A program made the position numbers and the translations under genes. Source: Bacteroidaceae bacterium (GTDB lineage Bacteria > Bacteroidota > Bacteroidia > Bacteroidales > Bacteroidaceae). Taken from it: a DNA stretch of 10,191 nucleotides. Positions 3,184 through 10,191 of the stretch are shown here, in pieces (the stretch's first letter is position 1; every line of letters begins with the position of its first letter). The notes under the pieces were generated by a model. That model did not search any database and was not told where the DNA came from. It saw only the letters and a program-made list of their open reading frames with translations. The stretch lies in assembly GCA_017466965.1 (NCBI GenBank), contig JAFTTD010000051.1, forward strand, positions 1 through 10,191, read 5' to 3'.

Positions 3184-3210
3184 GAGGCGTATTTGAGTTT
3201 GTAAGTTTTT
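3184..3210 (+). repeat. 27-bp degenerate dispersed repeat, upstream copy
   Basis: It starts GAGGCGT and continues with TTTGAG and TTGTAAG. A direct copy with about four mismatches lies at 4584-4610, so the pair flanks the acetyltransferase gene. Its reverse complement resembles the AACCTTAT-type octamers at 9651-9690. Confidence 0.5.
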
Positions 3211-3214
3211 GGAA

Positions 3215-3243
3215 GGAGATTCCTCACATACGTTCGGAATGAC
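3215..3243. repeat. Short REP-like palindromic element
   Basis: The arms ATTCC (3219-3223) and GGAAT (3236-3240) form an inverted repeat inside a GGAGATTCC...CGGAATGAC context. From memory, similar GAGATTCCTC...CGGAATGAC sequences recur between genes in many bacterial genomes; I could not search to confirm it. Confidence 0.4.
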
Positions 3244-3303
3244 TAGATGGAAAGGGGAGACGTGGCAAAGCACTATTTAAGGTTATGAGGTAAGCAACTA
3301 AAA

Positions 3304-3335
3304 AACTCAAAAACTTAAGAACTCAAAAACTAAAA
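3304..3335 (+). repeat. Tandem array of four 8-bp units, AACTNNNN type
   Basis: Four consecutive octamers each begin with AACT; the first and third are both AACTCAAA, so the array also has a 16-bp periodicity. It shares the 8-bp period and the AAC start with arrays at 4631-4662, 4722-4774, 9516-9550 and 9651-9690, although the unit sequence differs. Confidence 0.65.
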
Positions 3336-3433: not shown

Positions 3434-4573
3434 ATGGCAAATAATATTATTATCAAGCAGGTAGAGGGTAAAAAGGAACTGAAAAAGTTTATCCGTTTCA
3501 ATTATGAACTTTATAAGGATAATGCTTATTCTGTTCCGGATCTCTATGAAGATATGCTGGCTACGTTCTCTGACAAGAATGCGGCAATGGAGTTTTGCGA
3601 GGCTGTCTATTTCCTTGCATATAAGGATGGCAAGATTGTGGGACGTGTTGCCGGCATCATAAACCATAAGGCTAATGCTACTTGGGGCCTCAAGGCTGTG
3701 AGGTTTGGTTGGATTGACTTCGTTGATGATGAAGAGGTGAGCCGTCTGTTGATTGAGGCTGTTGAGAAATGGGGACGCCAGAAGGGCATGACTGAGATTC
3801 AGGGACCGCTCGGCTTCACTGACTTTGATGCAGAGGGTATGCTTATTGAGGGCTTTGAGGAACTGAGCACTATGGCTACCATTTATAATTATCCTTATTA
3901 TCCTAAACATATTGAGAAACTTGGGTTTGAGAAGGATGCTGACTGGATTGAGATGCTGATTAAGGTGCCGAGAGAAACGGGGCTTCCTGACAGGTTCAAG
4001 AGGATTGCAGAGATTGTGATGCAGAAATATAATCTTAAACTGAAGAAATATACTTCTGCAAAAAAACTGAAGGATGATTACGGCCAGGAAATTTTCAAGC
4101 TTGTGAATGAGGCTTTCAAGCCTTTGTTCGGATATTCGGAGTTGTCGCAGAAGCAGATTGACCAGTATGTGAATATGTATTTGCCTGTTCTTGACTTGAA
4201 ACTTATCTCGTTGATTACTGAGGCTGACGGGCGACTGGTTGGTGTCGGCATTTCCATGCCTTCAATGTCGCGTGCGCTTCAGAAGGCCAAGGGCAAGCTT
4301 TTCCCTTTCGGGTGGTGGCATTTGCTTAAGAACCTTAAGATTAAGAAACCTAAACTGCTTGACCTCATGATTGTGGCTATCAGTCCTGAATATCAGGGCA
4401 AGGGTGTCAATTCGCTGTTGTTCTACGACCTTCTTCCTATATATGTGTCTGAGGGATATGAGTATGTGGAGACGAATGTAGAGCTTGAGTCAAATTCTAA
4501 GGTGCAGCAGCAGTGGATATACTTTGAGCGCCGTCAGCATAAGCGCAGAAGGTGCTTCAAAAAGAAGTTGTGA
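3434..4573 (+). CDS. GNAT-superfamily N-acetyltransferase-like protein
   Basis: I start this gene at the ATG at 3434, giving 379 residues. The longer frame needs a TTG at 3410 that lies inside the -7 box. The N-terminal half has a GNAT-like strand pair (YFLAYKDGKIVGRVAGII, near residues 59-76). The C-terminal half has the acetyl-CoA motif A, VAISPEYQGKGVN, with Q-G-K-G at 321-324. Two tandem GNAT folds are therefore likely, the second bearing the better cofactor site. The tail is very basic (ERRQHKRRRCFKKK); I recall similar tails in Bacteroidales homologues. The substrate is not predictable. The gene stands alone between repeat-rich spacers, and its codon use is closer to the core genes than to the AT-rich operon upstream. 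The protein appears full length, cytosolic and without a signal peptide. Confidence 0.75.
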   Translation: MANNIIIKQVEGKKELKKFIRFNYELYKDNAYSVPDLYEDMLATFSDKNAAMEFCEAVYFLAYKDGKIVGRVAGIINHKANATWGLKAVRFGWIDFVDDEEVSRLLIEAVEKWGRQKGMTEIQGPLGFTDFDAEGMLIEGFEELSTMATIYNYPYYPKHIEKLGFEKDADWIEMLIKVPRETGLPDRFKRIAEIVMQKYNLKLKKYTSAKKLKDDYGQEIFKLVNEAFKPLFGYSELSQKQIDQYVNMYLPVLDLKLISLITEADGRLVGVGISMPSMSRALQKAKGKLFPFGWWHLLKNLKIKKPKLLDLMIVAISPEYQGKGVNSLLFYDLLPIYVSEGYEYVETNVELESNSKVQQQWIYFERRQHKRRRCFKKKL

Positions 4574-4583
4574 AGTAGGTTGT

Positions 4584-4610
4584 GAGGCGTTTTTGAGGTT
4601 GTAAGGTTTC
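4584..4610 (+). repeat. 27-bp degenerate dispersed repeat, downstream copy
   Basis: This is a direct copy of 3184-3210 with about four mismatches. It begins 10 bases after the acetyltransferase stop codon and abuts the composite element at 4610. Confidence 0.5.
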
Positions 4611-4728
4611 TATGTTGAAGAATGATTTTTAGGAGTTCAGAAGTTCAGGAGTTCGGTAGTTCAGACGAATCTATGGGGTGTTTACATCCTATGCTATTGT
4701 CCCCTTTTAACTTCTTACTTTAACTCCT
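4610..4728 (+). repeat. Composite intergenic element, copy A (inverted partner at 9695-9839)
   Basis: In order: a short lead ending in ATTTTT, four 8-bp units of AGGAGTTC type (4631-4662), an invariant core, and two 13-bp pyrimidine-rich units (4702-4714 and 4715-4727). Aligned by eye with the reverse complement of 9695-9839, it shows about eight mismatches in 119 columns plus one 26-bp length difference. Bases 4656-4697 are identical to the complement of 9752-9793 over 42 positions. It encodes no protein. Confidence 0.9.
4673..4692. repeat. Imperfect dyad inside the core of the composite element
   Basis: ATGGGGTGT and ACATCCTAT flank a central TT; the complement of the right arm is ATAGGATGT, so 7 of 9 positions match, centred on TGTTTACA. 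As RNA on this strand the two mismatches become G-U pairs. It could be a protein-binding site or a weak hairpin. The same dyad lies in copy B at 9757-9776. Confidence 0.5.
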
Positions 4729-4774
4729 CTAACTCCTTAACTTCTTAACTCCTTTAACACTTCCTTAACTCCTA
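4722..4774 (+). repeat. Array of AACTCCTT-type octamers upstream of parE
   Basis: Units beginning AAC start at 4722, 4731, 4739, 4747, 4756 and 4767. Most are 8 or 9 bp (AACTCCTT, AACTTCTT); one is 11 bp. The array overlaps the right end of copy A and stops 29 bases before the parE start codon. No TAnnTTTG promoter box is evident between 4574 and 4803. Confidence 0.65.
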
Positions 4775-4803
4775 AAATATAAATTCCTTAAACTATAAAT
4801 ACC

Positions 4804-6762
4804 ATGCAAGAAACAGAGGGTATGAGCGTGCAAGAAATGCCGCAGACGGTTGAATATACAGACGATAACATCCGACATTTGTCTGACATGGACCATGTGC
4901 GTACTCGTCCGGGAATGTATATCGGCAGACTTGGCGATGGTTCTCATGCGGAGGACGGCATTTATGTTCTTCTGAAAGAAATCATGGACAACTCTATTGA
5001 CGAGTTCAAGATGAATGCCGGCAAACGCATTGAAATTGACATTACGGACAATCTGGCGGTGACAGTACGCGACTATGGACGAGGCATTCCTCAGGGAAAG
5101 ATGATTGAGGCTGTCAGTATGCTGAACACCGGAGGAAAGTATGACTCTAAGGCGTTCAAGAAGAGCGTTGGTCTCAATGGTGTAGGCACGAAGGCTGTGA
5201 ATGCCCTTAGCAGCAAGTTTGAGGTGAGGAGCTACAGAGAGGGGAAGGTGAGGACTGCCGTGTTTGAAAAGGGTAACCTCATGTCTGACGGCTGGGCTGA
5301 TTCGCAAGACGAAAACGGTACATACATACATTTTCAGCCAGACAATACTCTGTTTCTGAACTATCATTTCCATCCTGAATTTGTTGAGACGATGCTTAGA
5401 AACTATACGTATCTCAACACGGGACTGGAGATATTCTATAACGGCAAGCGCATTATCTCGCGCAATGGTCTGAAGGACCTCCTGACTGACACCATGACGA
5501 CTCAGCCTCTGTACCCGATTGTCCATTTGAAGGGAGAGGACATTGAGATTGCTTTCACTCATACCAATCAGCAGTATGGCGAAGAGTACCATTCGTTTGT
5601 AAATGGTCAGCACACCATTCAGGGCGGTACTCATCAGAGTGCTTTCAAGGAGCATATTGCCCGAACCATAAAGGAGTATTACAACAAGAACTATGAGTAT
5701 GGCGACATAAGGAACGGCATAGTTGCCGCCATAGCGATAAATGTGGAAGAACCGCAGTTTGAGAGCCAGACAAAGATAAAGCTCGGTTCGCTCACCATGG
5801 AACCTAACGGTGGAGTAAGTGTGAACAAGTTTGTTGGCGACTTCGTCAAGAACGAGGTTGACAACTATCTTCACAAGAATACTGACATTGCGGAGATTAT
5901 ACTGCAGAAGATACAGGACAACGAACGCGACCGCAAGGCTATTGCCGGAGTTACAAAACTGGCGCGCGAGCGTGCCAAGAAAGCCAATCTGCACAACCGC
6001 AAGCTGCGCGACTGCCGTGTGCATCTGAACGATGCCAAGGGCGACAGAAAGGAAGAGAGCTGCATATTCATCACTGAGGGTGACTCGGCGAGCGGAAGCA
6101 TCACCAAGAGCCGTGATGTGAACACTCAGGCTGTCTTCTCGCTCAGAGGAAAACCGCTGAACTCGTTCGGACTGACAAAGAAAATCGTTTATGAAAACGA
6201 GGAGTTCAATCTGCTGCAGGCGGCATTGAACATTGAGGACGGCATTGACGGATTGCGCTACAACAAGGTGATTGTTGCAACCGATGCCGATGTCGATGGA
6301 ATGCACATCCGCCTGCTGATGATAACATTCTTCCTGCAGTTTTTCCCCGAACTCATCAGAAAGGGCCATGTGCACATTTTGCAGACTCCGCTTTTCAGAG
6401 TGAGAAACAGGAAGAAGAAGATTCGCAAGGCGGCTCTTGAAGAACTGACAAAGGACAAGCCTCTTGACAAGGGCGACTTCGTAACGCTGTACTGCTACAA
6501 CGAGGAGGACCGCTTGAGAGCCATTGACTTGCTCGGACCTGATCCGGAAATAACACGATTCAAAGGACTTGGAGAAATATCGCCCGATGAGTTCAAGAAT
6601 TTCATCGGACCAGACATCAGGCTTGAGCAGGTGACGCTGCGCAAGACCGACAAGGTGAAGGAACTCCTTGAATACTATATGGGCAAGAACACCATGGAGC
6701 GCCAGAACTTCATCATCAACAACCTCGTGTTCGAGGAGGACAAGCCAGAGGAAGATTTCTGA
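4804..6762 (+). CDS. parE: DNA topoisomerase IV subunit B (ParE)
   Basis: This 652-residue type IIA topoisomerase ATPase subunit, with ParC, relaxes and decatenates DNA using ATP. The GHKL ATPase fold shows EIMDNSIDE (59-67, Asn63 for Mg-ATP), GRGIP (92-96), the GVGTK lid motif (126-130) and the transducer Q-T-K loop (322-324). The TOPRIM domain shows EGDSASG (425-431) and DADVD (494-498), the metal-binding acidic residues. FKGLGEIS follows near 575. The protein is full length, without the insertion seen in proteobacterial GyrB. I prefer ParE to GyrB because of the [15 protein letters not shown] form of the ATPase motif and the coaD neighbour, both of which I recall for Bacteroidales topoisomerase IV. 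The first ATG, at 4804, is used; no strong ribosome binding site is seen, as is usual in the phylum. coaD follows after 23 bases, so the two are probably cotranscribed. Confidence 0.88.
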
Positions 6763-6785
6763 ACCATAGACAAATTAAGGCAGTT

Positions 6786-7241
6786 ATGAAGAAAGCACTT
6801 TTTGCAGGGAGTTTTGACCCCTTCACACGTGGTCATCAGTCGATAGTAGATCGTACACTTGCCATTGCCGATGAAGTGGTGATAGCCATAGGTGTCAATT
6901 CGGGAAAGACACCGATGTTCAGCCTTGAACAGCGCACCGAGATGATACGTCGTGTGTATGCAGGCAATGAGCGTGTCAGTGTAGAATCATACAGTGGCCT
7001 TACCACCGATTTCGCTCAATCCGTAGGGGCCACATTCCTTGTAAGGGGCGTTCGCTCAATAATGGATTTTGAAACGGAAAAGAACATAGCCGACGTTAAC
7101 AGAAAACTTACAGGCATAGAGACTGTGTTGCTGATAACAGAGCCGGAGTTTTCAAGCATAAGCTCCAGCATTGTGCGCGAACTGATGAGCTATGGCAGGG
7201 ATGTGACAGAGTTTTTGCCAGACGGAATGGGCGATTTTTAG
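6786..7241 (+). CDS. coaD: Pantetheine-phosphate adenylyltransferase
   Basis: CoaD transfers AMP from ATP to 4'-phosphopantetheine to make dephospho-CoA, the penultimate step of coenzyme A synthesis, in the cytosol. The 151 residues fit the family's usual 150-165. The nucleotidyltransferase signature appears as AGSFDPFTRGH (7-17), where the T-x-G-H form of the H-x-G-H motif is normal for CoaD. The substrate-binding LVRGVRSIMDFETE segment lies near 85-98, and the second ATP motif, ISSSIVREL, near 124-132. The gene follows parE by 23 bases. A hairpin with a T run begins 12 bases past its stop, so transcription may end there before the toxin-antitoxin promoter. Confidence 0.95.
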   Translation: MKKALFAGSFDPFTRGHQSIVDRTLAIADEVVIAIGVNSGKTPMFSLEQRTEMIRRVYAGNERVSVESYSGLTTDFAQSVGATFLVRGVRSIMDFETEKNIADVNRKLTGIETVLLITEPEFSSISSSIVRELMSYGRDVTEFLPDGMGDF

Positions 7242-7253
7242 AATCTTTTTTAC

Positions 7254-7275
7254 AGTGTACCAATTTGTGTACACT
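7254..7275. promoter_or_regulatory. Probable YefM-type autoregulatory operator
   Basis: A perfect GTGTACAC palindrome (7267-7274) contains the hexamer TGTACA (7268-7273). A one-mismatch hexamer, TGTACC, lies at 7256-7261, 12 bp away centre to centre. As I recall, E. coli YefM and YefM-YoeB bind adjacent long and short palindromes with TGTACA cores at that same spacing. The site ends three bases before the -33 box of the antitoxin promoter, where binding could block RNA polymerase. Confidence 0.6.
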
Positions 7276-7281
7276 TTTTTT
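7254..7281 (+). terminator. Possible coaD terminator, overlapping the toxin-antitoxin control region
   Basis: A 7-bp perfect inverted repeat (AGTGTAC 7254-7260, GTACACT 7269-7275) with an 8-base loop runs into seven T (7275-7281). The layout fits an intrinsic terminator, but the stem is short and AT-containing, and the same bases read equally well as an antitoxin operator. Confidence 0.45.
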
Positions 7282-7309
7282 GTTTTCTGTTTTTTTTCTT
7301 TTACCTTTG
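7279..7309 (+). promoter_or_regulatory. Bacteroidetes-type promoter of the toxin-antitoxin pair
   Basis: A TTTG -33 box (7279-7282), a 19-bp spacer and TACCTTTG (7302-7309) match the TTTG / TAnnTTTG consensus in sequence and spacing. Transcription would start near 7316, about 20 bases before the antitoxin ATG. It also shows that the upstream in-frame ATG at 7255 cannot be the start. Confidence 0.8.
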
Positions 7310-7335
7310 TGCCGTTAAACAAAAACAACGAAGAT

Positions 7336-7590
7336 ATGATTACAGTCAGTTCAAGAGAGTTCAGAAGCAATCAAGCCTACATTTTCGACAAAGCCGACAG
7401 TGGAGAGAAGATAATCATCCGTAGAGGTAAGAAGCGTGCCTATACGCTTGTTCCGATTCTTGACGAAGAATTAGACATCACCACGGAACTTCAGGCGAAG
7501 ATAGACAAGGCAAGGCAGGAATACAAGGAGGGCAAAACTCTCCACTTTGAATCTGCAGAAGCGGTGCAAAAATGGATGGATGAGTTATGA
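7336..7590 (+). CDS. yefM: Phd/YefM-family antitoxin
   Basis: I start this 84-residue protein at 7336, just after the promoter; a longer frame from 7255 would begin upstream of the transcription start. The N-terminus, MITVSSREFRSNQ, has the Phd/YefM pattern of a short beta strand followed by a helix beginning near residue 6. It continues to GEKIIIRRGKKRAYTLVPI, the strand pair that completes the DNA-binding dimer. The charged C-terminal half (helical, ending VQKWMDEL) would be the disordered segment that wraps the toxin. It overlaps the toxin start by ATGA, so the two are translationally coupled. By family knowledge it neutralises the toxin and represses its own promoter through the TGTACA-type site upstream. 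Family identification is firm; the yefM name rests on the partner and operator. Confidence 0.85.
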   Translation: MITVSSREFRSNQAYIFDKADSGEKIIIRRGKKRAYTLVPILDEELDITTELQAKIDKARQEYKEGKTLHFESAEAVQKWMDEL

Positions 7591-7862
7591 GTTATAATAT
7601 TGATTTCTCGGACGATGCAGCAAAGGTTATAAAGAAATGGAAAAAGTCCAACCCTATAGCCTTTAAGAAGTTTTATAAGCTGCTACCCGAACTTGAACAA
7701 CATCCACGCTCCGGTACAGGTCATCCCGAACCGTTGAAAGGGGGTAAGGAAATCACCTGGTCCAGACGCATAACGGCGCACGACCGGATTATATATGACA
7801 TTTATGAAGAGACCATAACCGTCCTTGTCGTTGAAGTGGAAGGACATTACAACGACAAGTGA
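7587..7862 (+). CDS. yoeB: Txe/YoeB-family mRNA interferase toxin
   Basis: The protein has 91 residues, close to E. coli YoeB (84). YoeB is a RelE-fold ribosome-dependent endoribonuclease that cuts mRNA in the A site. The family core aligns well: GHPEPLK (45-51), WSRRIT (58-63), DRIIYDI (66-72) and a C-terminal GHY. By alignment with E. coli Glu46, Arg65, His83 and Tyr84, the catalytic residues are Glu48, Arg67, His87 and Tyr88, all present, so the toxin should be active. There is a short NDK extension after the usual C-terminal Tyr. The start lies within the antitoxin stop (ATGA). The protease gene begins 44 bases after its stop, with no terminator seen between, so read-through is possible. 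Confidence 0.9.
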   Translation: MSYNIDFSDDAAKVIKKWKKSNPIAFKKFYKLLPELEQHPRSGTGHPEPLKGGKEITWSRRITAHDRIIYDIYEETITVLVVEVEGHYNDK

Positions 7863-7906
7863 TTTCATATAGCCAGAATAAAACAAACAACAACAAACAT
7901 AAGAGT

Positions 7907-9508
7907 ATGAATATCAAGAAACTGTTTGCGGCGGCATTCGTTATGCTGCCGTCAATAATAAACGTAAATGCACAGCAGTCATTGGAACAGTTGCGTAAAG
8001 ATATGATAGAGAACCCTATACGCAAACTGCAGTTTGCTGAATTTGCAGTGAACAGACTGTATGTTGACAGCATAGATGAACACAAGCTCGTGGAGGATGC
8101 CATCATAGGAATGCTCAAGGGGCTGGACCCTCATTCCACATATACCCCTGCCAAGGATGTGCAGAAGCTCAACGAACCTCTGCAGGGCAGTTTTGAAGGT
8201 ATTGGTGTGCAGTACAACATGATTGAAGACACGCTCATGGTGATACAGCCCACAAGCGGCGGACCTTCAGAGAAAGCCGGAATAATGGCTGGCGACCGTA
8301 TAGTGTTTGTCAACGACACTACCATTGCCGGAGTGAAAATGAGCCGCGAGGAAATAATGCGCAGGCTCAGAGGACCTAAAGGTTCGAAGGTGAAGGTGGG
8401 AATACTCCGCAACGGAGTGAAGGGAATACAAGACTTCACCATCCAGCGCGACAAGATACCTGTGTTCTCTATCGATGCAAGGTATATGATTGACGATGTA
8501 ACAGGATATGTCAGAATAAACAATTTCGGCGCAACGACATACGAGGAATTCATGACTGCCACTAAAGACCTGAAGAAGAAGGGCATGAAGCATCTTGTGC
8601 TCGATCTTCAGGGCAACGGAGGCGGCTACCTGCAGGCGGCTGTCCAGATAGCAAACGAATTCCTGCAAGAGGGAGAGATGATTGTATATACCGACGGACG
8701 TGCCACAGGGCGCAAGGACTACAGGGCAAACGGACAAGGAACCCTGAAGGAAGGAACAGTCGTGGTGCTTGTTGACAGCTACACTGCTTCCGCGTCTGAA
8801 ATTGTAAGCGGAGCGATACAGGACAACGACCGAGGCACGATAGTGGGCAGACGCACCTTTGCGAAAGGATTGGTTCAGCGTCCTGTCGATTTGCCTGACG
8901 GCTCGCTCATACGTCTGACCATCGCCCACTACTATTCTCCTTCGGGCAGATGTATTCAGAAACCATACGAGAAAGGTGACAGGAAGAACTACGACAGCGA
9001 CATCACACAGCGCCTGAACAGTGGAGAGCTGCTCCATGCCGACAGTATACATTTTGCCGATTCGCTGAAGTTCAAGACCCTGAAGCTCGGCCGCACAGTC
9101 TATGGCGGAGGAGGAATAATGCCCGACGTGTATGTACCGCTCGACACTACTGAATATACGCCGCTTCACAGGGAACTTTCAGCCAAGAGCTGCATCGTGA
9201 ACACAAATCTGAAGTATATTGACAGCAACCGCAAAAAACTGCAGAAGGCATACCCGGACTTCAGCAAGTTCCTGGCAGAATTTACCCCTGGCAACGACAT
9301 CATAAAGATATTGCTCGACTATGCGAAGAAGGCTAATGTAAAATATGATGACTCAACTTTGAATGCAACTATGCCGCTCCTGAAGCAACAGCTGAAAGCG
9401 CTCATCGCCCGCGACCTCTGGGACATGAACGAATACTATCAGATTATGAACAACGAAACAGACATCTATAAGAAAGGTGTGGAAGTGGTTAGAGAGAAGA
9501 GGAAGTGA
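7907..9508 (+). CDS. Periplasmic S41-family C-terminal processing protease
   Basis: I choose the ATG at 7907 (533 residues) over a GTG at 7859. It opens directly into a signal peptide, MNIKKLFAAAFVMLPS, with likely cleavage after NVNA. An N-terminal helical region with GLDPHSTY (73-80) precedes a PDZ domain around residues 92-180, which recognises substrate C-termini. The peptidase S41 domain follows: DLQGNGGGYL (233-242), SASEI with catalytic Ser295, and FAKGLVQ with general base Lys320 and Gln324. The Ser-Lys spacing of 25 and Lys-Gln spacing of 4 match CtpB and Prc. A C-terminal region of about 170 residues follows. It resembles CtpA/Prc proteases that trim or degrade envelope proteins; the substrate is unknown. 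I recall this protease near coaD in Bacteroidales, with no toxin-antitoxin pair between them. Confidence 0.92.
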   Translation: MNIKKLFAAAFVMLPSIINVNAQQSLEQLRKDMIENPIRKLQFAEFAVNRLYVDSIDEHKLVEDAIIGMLKGLDPHSTYTPAKDVQKLNEPLQGSFEGIGVQYNMIEDTLMVIQPTSGGPSEKAGIMAGDRIVFVNDTTIAGVKMSREEIMRRLRGPKGSKVKVGILRNGVKGIQDFTIQRDKIPVFSIDARYMIDDVTGYVRINNFGATTYEEFMTATKDLKKKGMKHLVLDLQGNGGGYLQAAVQIANEFLQEGEMIVYTDGRATGRKDYRANGQGTLKEGTVVVLVDSYTASASEIVSGAIQDNDRGTIVGRRTFAKGLVQRPVDLPDGSLIRLTIAHYYSPSGRCIQKPYEKGDRKNYDSDITQRLNSGELLHADSIHFADSLKFKTLKLGRTVYGGGGIMPDVYVPLDTTEYTPLHRELSAKSCIVNTNLKYIDSNRKKLQKAYPDFSKFLAEFTPGNDIIKILLDYAKKANVKYDDSTLNATMPLLKQQLKALIARDLWDMNEYYQIMNNETDIYKKGVEVVREKRK

Positions 9509-9515
9509 GGAGGGG

Positions 9516-9550
9516 AGGAGTTAAGGAGTTAAAGGGAGTTAAGGAGTTAA
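9516..9550 (-). repeat. Octamer array after the protease gene
   Basis: Units of GGAGTTAA type repeat four times with 8- to 10-bp spacing; read on the minus strand they are AACTCCTT-type units, as at 4722-4774. The array begins eight bases after the protease stop codon. Confidence 0.65.
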
Positions 9551-9582
9551 GTTTTTAATTATGAACAATCGTGCAAATGAGA

Positions 9583-9609
9583 GCAGAATCAAGTTTACTT
9601 GAATTATGC
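9583..9609. repeat. Imperfect hairpin in the protease-ybeY spacer
   Basis: TCAAGT and ACTTGA pair perfectly around TT (9589-9602). After a bulged A and a G-A mismatch the pairing continues through AA/TT and GCA/TGC. No T run follows, so it does not look like a normal terminator. It lies in the only part of this spacer not made of octamers. Confidence 0.45.
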
Positions 9610-9650
9610 CGAGTGCAGCTGATTGTAGGCGAAGCCAATTATGATAGCCT

Positions 9651-9690
9651 ACCTTATAACCTCATAACCTTACAACCTTATAACCTTATA
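9651..9690 (+). repeat. Five tandem 8-bp units, ACCTTATA type
   Basis: Five exact octamer steps fill 40 bases; three units are ACCTTATA, and the others differ by one or two bases. In the phase used for the other arrays the unit reads AACCTTAT, again starting with AAC. Confidence 0.8.
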
Positions 9691-9694
9691 AAAA

Positions 9695-9839
9695 AGGAGT
9701 TAAAGTAAGAAGTTAAAAGAGGAAGTTAAAAGAGGGAGTTAAAAGAGGACGATAGCATAGGATGTAAACACCCCATAGATTCGTCTGAACTACAGAACTT
9801 CTGAACTCCTGAACTCCTAAAAATCGTTCTTTAAAATAG
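9695..9839 (-). repeat. Composite intergenic element, copy B (inverted partner at 4610-4728)
   Basis: This is the reverse-complement copy of 4610-4728. It has four 13-bp units (9696-9747, three GRAGTTAAAAGAG and one variant) where copy A has two. The identical 42-bp core is at 9752-9793, and four AACTNNNN octamers lie at 9788-9819. The extra 26 bp, exactly two 13-mers, account for the full length difference between the copies. It ends 21 bases before the ybeY start codon. Confidence 0.9.
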
Positions 9840-9860
9840 AGAACTTAAATACTAAAACGC

Positions 9861-10191
9861 ATGATTACATACAACACTGACGGCATATCAATGCCTAAAA
9901 TTAAGAAGCGCGATACGAGCGCATGGATTAAAGCCGTAGCGCAGACTTACGGCAAGAAAGTGGGCGACATTGCCTACATCTTCTGCAACGACGAGAAGAT
10001 TCTTGAAGTGAACAGACAGTATCTGCAGCACGACTACTATACCGACATCATCACTTTCGACTACACAGAGGACGACATCATCAGCGGCGACCTCTTCATC
10101 AGCCTTGACACCGTCCGCTCAAACTCGGAAGAGCAGAACACTTCCTACGATGAAGAACTCCACCGCGTCATCATTCATGGCATCCTCCACC
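9861..10191 (+). CDS. ybeY: Endoribonuclease YbeY, rRNA maturation factor (3' partial)
   Basis: The frame is open from the ATG at 9861 to the window end, giving 110 residues of a protein usually 135-155 long. YbeY is a zinc-dependent single-strand endoribonuclease involved in 16S rRNA 3'-end maturation and ribosome quality control. Family features seen are IAYIFCNDEKILEVNRQYL (near 38-56), the Y-T-D-I-I-T-F-D-Y segment (60-68), a G-D-L-F-I-S strand, and RVIIHGILH at the edge. The last contains the first two histidines of the H-G-x-L-H-L-x-G-Y-D-H zinc site; the rest lies beyond the window. It starts 21 bases after copy B, so the element may occupy its promoter region. Confidence 0.92.
   Translation, partial: MITYNTDGISMPKIKKRDTSAWIKAVAQTYGKKVGDIAYIFCNDEKILEVNRQYLQHDYYTDIITFDYTEDDIISGDLFISLDTVRSNSEEQNTSYDEELHRVIIHGILH

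Follow-up and report, generated by a model that had tools for sequence, protein, structure and literature searches.

The closest known counterparts of the elements treated here are several groups of dispersed palindromic repeats (statements on these systems refer to the excerpted parts of the papers cited). CGTC-tagged repetitive extragenic palindromes (REPs) are small dispersed palindromes, arranged mostly in head-to-head pairs and often carrying TGTC or CCTC in place of the tag, for which their authors report that no dedicated transposase was found (PMC3733652), and GTAG REPs are described as mobilised by REP-associated tyrosine transposases (RAYTs; PMC3733652). The BrickBuilt miniature inverted-repeat transposable element (MITE) of Porphyromonas gingivalis, a member of Bacteroidales, is intergenic, contains an internal tandem array, and is present in 19 copies in one strain (PMC4596501). 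A 10,191-nt stretch of Bacteroidales DNA (contig JAFTTD010000051.1 of the Bacteroidaceae assembly GCA_017466965.1; hereafter, the window) contains two inverted copies of a palindromic element, one between a GNAT acetyltransferase gene and a parE/gyrB-type gene, the other between a gene of an S41 protease and ybeY. The two copies are probably separate members of a dispersed, non-coding, and non-autonomous palindromic repeat family of Prevotella-type Bacteroidaceae.

The family is apparently undescribed but belongs to the known kind of dispersed palindromic repeats, because it has a motif in common with CGTC-tagged REPs, a tandem array with BrickBuilt, and in-frame insertion with the palindromic elements of Rickettsia. 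As in CGTC-tagged REPs, most cores end in TCGTC or TTGTC, and four GAG-type copies end in CCTC (three) or TCTC (one); by contrast, the 8–9 bp stem starting with AT and the 4–5 nt loop beside the tag are absent by inspection, the motif instead bounds a core of 34–42 nt between tandem arrays, and the arms of copy 1 pair across that core (PMC3733652, in excerpt). Tandem arrays are also found in BrickBuilt, but its 23-nt unit forms a single direct array with short IS5-like terminal repeats, whereas the units here measure about 8–13 nt and lie inverted on both sides of the core (PMC4596501, in excerpt). The Rickettsia elements lie in frame inside genes, as do those of a sister family described below, but come from a different phylum and are likened here by description (PMC10969869, in excerpt). 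GTAG REPs are likewise dispersed hairpin repeats but differ in that a match to their Y1 transposase is missing from genome G271, which has the most copies (PMC3733652, in excerpt). PARCEL, a protein repeat of 25 residues, was set aside (PMC2996958, in excerpt), and PMC8040213 (in excerpt) lists palindromic RNA candidates of Bacteroidetes. No description of this family was found in the open-licence literature, judged by titles and abstract openings among the matches listed, and the repeat strings themselves do not occur in the open-licence literature searched.

The inverted similarity extends further than was recognised in a preliminary description, which had estimated an identity of about 93% between positions 4610–4728 and 9695–9839. 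The similarity is real, but the identity over the same coordinates is slightly lower (107 of 119 aligned bases, or 90%, with 26 columns unaligned), and the best local alignment is longer, joining 4587–4755 (copy 1, core reading on the minus strand) and 9693–9860 (copy 2, plus strand) with 146 of 173 columns identical. Its score of 202 compares with a maximum of 32 among 1000 dinucleotide-preserving shuffles. The exact match of 42 bp lies precisely where it had been placed, at 4656–4697 against the complement of 9752–9793. Copy 1 consists of TTTTTAGGAGTTCAGAAGTTCAGGAGTTCGGTAGTTCA, a core of 38 nt, and a run of TTAACTCC-type units: its first arm (4631–4663, plus strand), preceded by a T run, comprises four AGTTC-type octamers that, in the folded RNA, pair with the second arm, the core occupies 4664–4701 on the minus strand, and the second arm of TTAACTCC-type octamers, a repeat cluster only partly paired in the fold, occupies 4702–4760 (plus strand). 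Apart from a C/A difference at one position, the outermost three units in one arm are inverted copies of those in the other. In copy 2, all on the plus strand, an arm of GGAGTTAA-type units at 13-bp spacing (9695–9747; repeat family D1) precedes the core (9748–9785), which is followed by an arm of GAACTCCT-type octamers and an A run (9786–9822). The core sequence in the window is GACRATAGCATAGGATGTAAACACC. Across the family, the core measures about 38–39 nt (34–42 nt) and is bounded by GACRA and TYGTC, with short tandem arrays inverted on both sides. As RNA, copy 1 folds into a single long hairpin in both directions with the core at its tip (-42.7 kcal/mol with z -5.6 in one direction, -41.8 kcal/mol with z -4.6 in the other), and a 9-bp stem with G-U pairs lies within the core on one strand only. 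Core-less arrays of GGAGTTAA-type and AACCTTAT-type units adjoin copy 2 (9518–9550 and 9658–9688), making its spacer a patchwork of repeat types.

Cores of the window type recur in other genomes. All statements on copy number are drawn from the genomes of relatives, not from the genome of the window itself. When copy 2 was searched against 399 genomes of the family, two places in genome G027 matched across the window core. A pattern of the letters common to the window and G027, allowing up to three mismatches, matched 10 times in G268, 8 times in G172, and 6 times in G027, with no match of the reversed pattern, which served as control, in any of the three. One of the matches in G268 (L268) falls in coding DNA by chance and was left out of the arm-matching and placement counts, leaving six to nine per genome. 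The preliminary description had proposed searching for the core in related strains; a 25-nt piece of the window core had no match at up to three mismatches in six genomes. A 126-base piece of copy 1 had no match in three genomes of the genus of G001, where an empty result is uninformative. Plasmids and phages gave no match to copy 2, and viral contigs gave none in exact-pattern scans.

The fetched copies contain one core, close to GACGATACCATAGGATGYAAACAYCAGCAAWSWTTYGTC, whose flanks belong to at least four types of arm; AGTTC-type, GTGAGTGGTGA/TTACCTC-type, GAAGTTACCGCTTGAGC-type, AGTAGTGACAGG-type, and AAAGGAGTTAAAGG-type flanks were seen. Where the arms are of the TTACCTC type (four copies), GAG/CTC replaces GAC/GTC at the core boundaries, a paired change. 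A model (R1) built from 24 distinct cores, excluding the window (29 non-window rows before duplicates were collapsed; right end re-cut by hand in L282, L285, and L287), ranks both window copies first, on opposite strands, with 33.0 bits (E 2.6e-8) for copy 2 and 31.2 bits (E 8.9e-8) for copy 1. Including the window copies, the arms of the core family match their own partners modestly better than swapped ones (mean 17.1 vs 14.0, a difference equalled in 4 of 2000 shuffles). As expected of a MITE, individual genomes of relatives contain numerous non-coding copies with inverted repeats.

A sister family is defined by its AGTTC arm. The search with copy 2 gave matches in at least 53 of the 399 family genomes, a lower bound set by scoring at most two candidates per genome. 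Among 18 inspected loci with a match over the AGTTC arm, the arm is present in all and an AGAC-type junction in most; a complete element reads (AGGAGTTC)n, AGACRA, core, TYGTCT, (GAACTCCT)n. With up to two mismatches, the pattern AGTTCAGRAGTTCAGACRA occurs in all 18 genomes chosen from earlier matches (82 times in G271, 49 in G248, and 38 in G150), although some of these matches fall within an array and not at a junction. The reversed pattern occurs zero or one time per genome. With one mismatch, it occurs in 19 of the 399 family genomes (16 with two or more matches, 3 with a single match; 63 matches in G271; control in 3 genomes). In an order-wide sample, it occurs in 8 of 393 genomes, seven of them with single one-mismatch matches (control in 2), which is treated as chance level. 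Forty distinct complete elements, three of them nested, were extracted from the loci; most are alike at their ends (GACRAW, CTATYGTC) and differ in the middle. Four of the 40, with cores longer than 61 nt (including the three nested composites), were left out of the core-comparison and arm-pairing tests, and the latter dropped one more for its short flank (n = 35). Cores of this family resemble R1 weakly (best of the set 19.7 bits, L103, E 0.005), so that they may have a common origin with the window-type cores. Several junctions of this family in G271 (e.g., L179 and L157) read TAGTTTTG or TACCTTTG, which were not seen in the window copies and resemble the Bacteroides -7 promoter motif (TAnnTTTG).

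Elements of both families are found predominantly between co-directional genes. Spacers with an AGTTC element are co-directional in 60 of 69 cases (5 divergent, 4 convergent), compared with 144 of 259 spacers without one (54 divergent, 61 convergent; Fisher P 7e-7), so that divergent and convergent spacers are both depleted; the bias persists against element-free spacers in element-bearing loci only (27 of 55 co-directional; P 8e-6). In the core family outside the window, 21 of the 24 copies with both flanks visible are co-directional (P 0.002); another three are at the edge of a contig or locus, and two are in open frames. These P values are rough, given the non-independence of related genomes and a crude open reading frame caller, which delimited the background spacers on loci that had been retrieved for different purposes. 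Excluded from both groups compared were nine spacers that have arm-like repeats but lack a junction (seven co-directional, one divergent, and one convergent).

In the sister family, 25 of 115 distinct half-elements are located within open frames of 70 codons or more, some of these frames being spurious (here an intact GAC junction was required, whereas the spacer count used the bare pattern). Several of the frames encode recognisable proteins that carry the repeat as an in-frame peptide, such as GVQEFRSS. Among four proteins checked, three have their Pfam match in two stretches, as expected if an insert splits the domain (an M16 peptidase, an FAD protein, and a MiaB-like protein from G271); in the fourth, a B12-binding radical SAM protein, the insert lies between domains. 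Such in-frame insertion in conserved genes was seen only in the sister family, not in the window copies. In all 18 other genomes of the genus of G271, the MiaB-like gene is present without the element of G271. The loop that carries the element in G271 (L178) is occupied differently in relatives, by a different foldback built of GTCAACAA-type units in L194 (G203), by a CCCCTCCC/GGAGGGGAGG-type insert in both L195 and L196, and by a shorter, C-rich insert in L197, indicating that the loop is tolerant and used by several repeat families.

The genes around the window copies, assigned by Pfam, are of the kinds previously named (parE, coaD, a toxin–antitoxin pair, a protease, and ybeY). All four that flank the elements are on the plus strand: the GNAT gene (3434–4573; PF00583) upstream of copy 1, the parE/gyrB-type gene (4804–6762; PF00204, PF01751, and PF00986) downstream of it, the S41 protease gene (7907–9508; PF03572) upstream of copy 2, and the start of ybeY (9861–10190; PF02130) downstream. 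The closest loci, found via the S41 protease (best-segment protein identity 74% for L001 and L002, 72% for L003), come from records named Bacteroidaceae, Prevotellaceae, and Roseburia, the last label probably reflecting mis-binning. A comparison of gene order, suggested in the preliminary description, revealed that all three keep the order and strand of gnat, parE, coaD, S41, and ybeY but lack both elements. Between gnat and parE, the window has 230 bp, L001 and L002 each have 10 bp, and L003 has about 113 bp of sequence unlike the element; the stop codon of the protease gene overlaps the start of ybeY in all three, whereas the window has a spacer of 352 bp. The core model matches none of the 26 loci (L001–L026). 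The absence of the elements and the short or overlapping gaps fit a gain of both spacers in the lineage of the window. The elements lengthen spacers, as between the protease gene and ybeY. The proposal that a small non-autonomous element with a preference for spacers was inserted twice is well supported by the multiple related cores elsewhere and by the three closest loci devoid of both copies.

Given multi-copy cores, element-free loci, and copies inside genes, dispersal by insertion is the simplest reading. The inverted arrays let a strand fold back on itself with the core at its tip. The copies would be spread by an enzyme acting in trans. The tandem arms may turn over by slippage and recombination, which would yield similar cores with different arms or with only one matching arm; the arms of a genome would reflect whichever unit types are common there, with an inverted placement around the core that is frequent but not constant. 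Insertions would survive where promoters, terminators, and reading frames stay unbroken. The window copies, which separate gnat from parE and S41 from ybeY, are probably transcribed as intercistronic hairpins.

Several observations weigh against this interpretation. Movement itself was not observed, so that mobility is deduced from sequence comparison, and a target-site duplication is not definable, because divergence at the MiaB site and in the sister loci prevents the ends from being placed. A Y1 transposase (PF01797) is present in 6 of 18 genomes but in neither G271 nor G248. A link to a Y1-type transposase was not found in a search limited to PF01797. Mobilisation by RAYTs is not supported, as PF01797 has no match in G271, the genome richest in copies. 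The core pattern is present in 28 of 399 genomes and its control in 14, so that single matches are near chance, and the R1 test is partly dependent, the core set having been chosen with a pattern that carries window letters. The fold of copy 2 is weaker (z -2.2 and -0.6), some flanks in the core family barely match each other (own-arm scores of 10 to 34), and covariation in the core, apart from the GAG/CTC change, does not exceed that of shuffles. In the sister family, only 9 of the 18 inspected copies are complete with both arms, the others being one-armed or doubtful, and pairing is not specific to the copy when partner arms are shuffled within genomes (525, against an average of 532 after shuffling; 685 of 1000 shuffles reached the observed value). 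Copy-specific correction of arms by quasi-palindrome repair is therefore not supported in this family.

Similar cores are armed by varied tandem units, even within G268, but it seems doubtful that a conserved tip of about 39 nt with an interchangeable stem is the proper description of the element. It is just as unlikely that the core is the unit that is recognised, moves, or acts, with stems supplied repeatedly by micro-repeat arrays of the host, and a class whose defining features are the loop sequence and the symmetry of the arms, instead of terminal repeats, is a similarly speculative proposition. The odds are lowered further by the many copies that are one-armed or have poorly matching arms. 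If true, the structure would make it possible to examine in nature how hairpin repeats can spread when no enzyme for it is obvious, and it would caution annotators about repeat peptides, GVQEFRSS for example, that lie in frame in Prevotella-type proteins.

The elements might also be cis-acting RNA hairpins of old dispersal that are kept by selection, for instance because they set relative expression within polycistronic mRNA. This possibility, which is compatible with a dispersed repeat family rather than exclusive of it, deserves tentative consideration, since the bias towards co-directional spacers, the stable fold of copy 1, and the similar cores with different arms would all be expected. 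However, many copies are located near unrelated genes, AGTTC-type copies lie within proteins, others are one-armed, and the covariation remains at the level of shuffles. Rfam identified only two miRNA families in the window, far under their gathering scores (E 0.13 and 0.84), and one tRNA and three long-hairpin miRNA families in 15 loci, so that the matches at elements are limited to miRNA families under gathering scores.

A single local duplication or gene conversion, in which one spacer was copied into the other, is improbable. It would explain why the similarity runs about 45 bp past the arm on one side (4587–4630), beyond the foldback, but core and architecture recur at many sites in other genomes, which makes a local event unnecessary. 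If the copies are members of a dispersed family, gene conversion after insertion is a possible source of the additional 45 bp.

The preliminary description had also envisaged an inversion of the block by recombination between the two copies, which would bring other sequences upstream of parE and ybeY. The inverted orientation and the 42 identical bases make such a flip physically possible, but an active inversion cassette found no support and is very unlikely. Relatives keep order and strand, not only in the three closest loci but also for gnat, parE, and S41 in all 15 of the 26 loci where these three markers were detected; ybeY is on the opposite strand in two remoter loci (L007, along with coaD, and L041), but not in the manner of the proposed flip. 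Related elements are general dispersed repeats in other genomes, and a scan restricted to sigma-70 types found no promoter-like site in either spacer. Inversion of the block would be a theoretical side effect of the copies, not their function.

That the elements act as intrinsic terminators is hardly conceivable, because the spacers do form hairpins but with reversed polarity (a T run before and an A run after the AGTTC arm), the scan found no terminator-like site with a GC-rich stem and T run in either spacer, and only 4 of the 69 spacers with an element are convergent, compared with 61 of 259 others.

Foldbacks of other sequence were encountered as well. Two copies of one with ATTAGAGA-type arms lie in L058 (G196; 721–843 and 1905–1986), indicating that other foldback families share this design. 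Another, with AGTTTTTG-type arms and a loop of 96 nt, precedes the GNAT gene in the window (3192–3327).

The remaining genes of the window encode a BspA-like LRR protein, a DUF4595 protein, a CoaD-type protein, and a YefM-like/YoeB-like toxin–antitoxin pair, the YefM-like match scoring under the Pfam gathering score. The pair (7336–7862) sits between coaD and the S41 protease gene and was not detected in the three closest loci, where these two genes lie within about 90 bp. The BspA-like LRR_5 gene (117–2206) is seemingly split by a frameshift near 1.89 kb: the first frame stops at 1901, and LRR-like sequence, judged by eye, continues in another frame to 2206, which reflects either a disrupted gene or a sequencing error.

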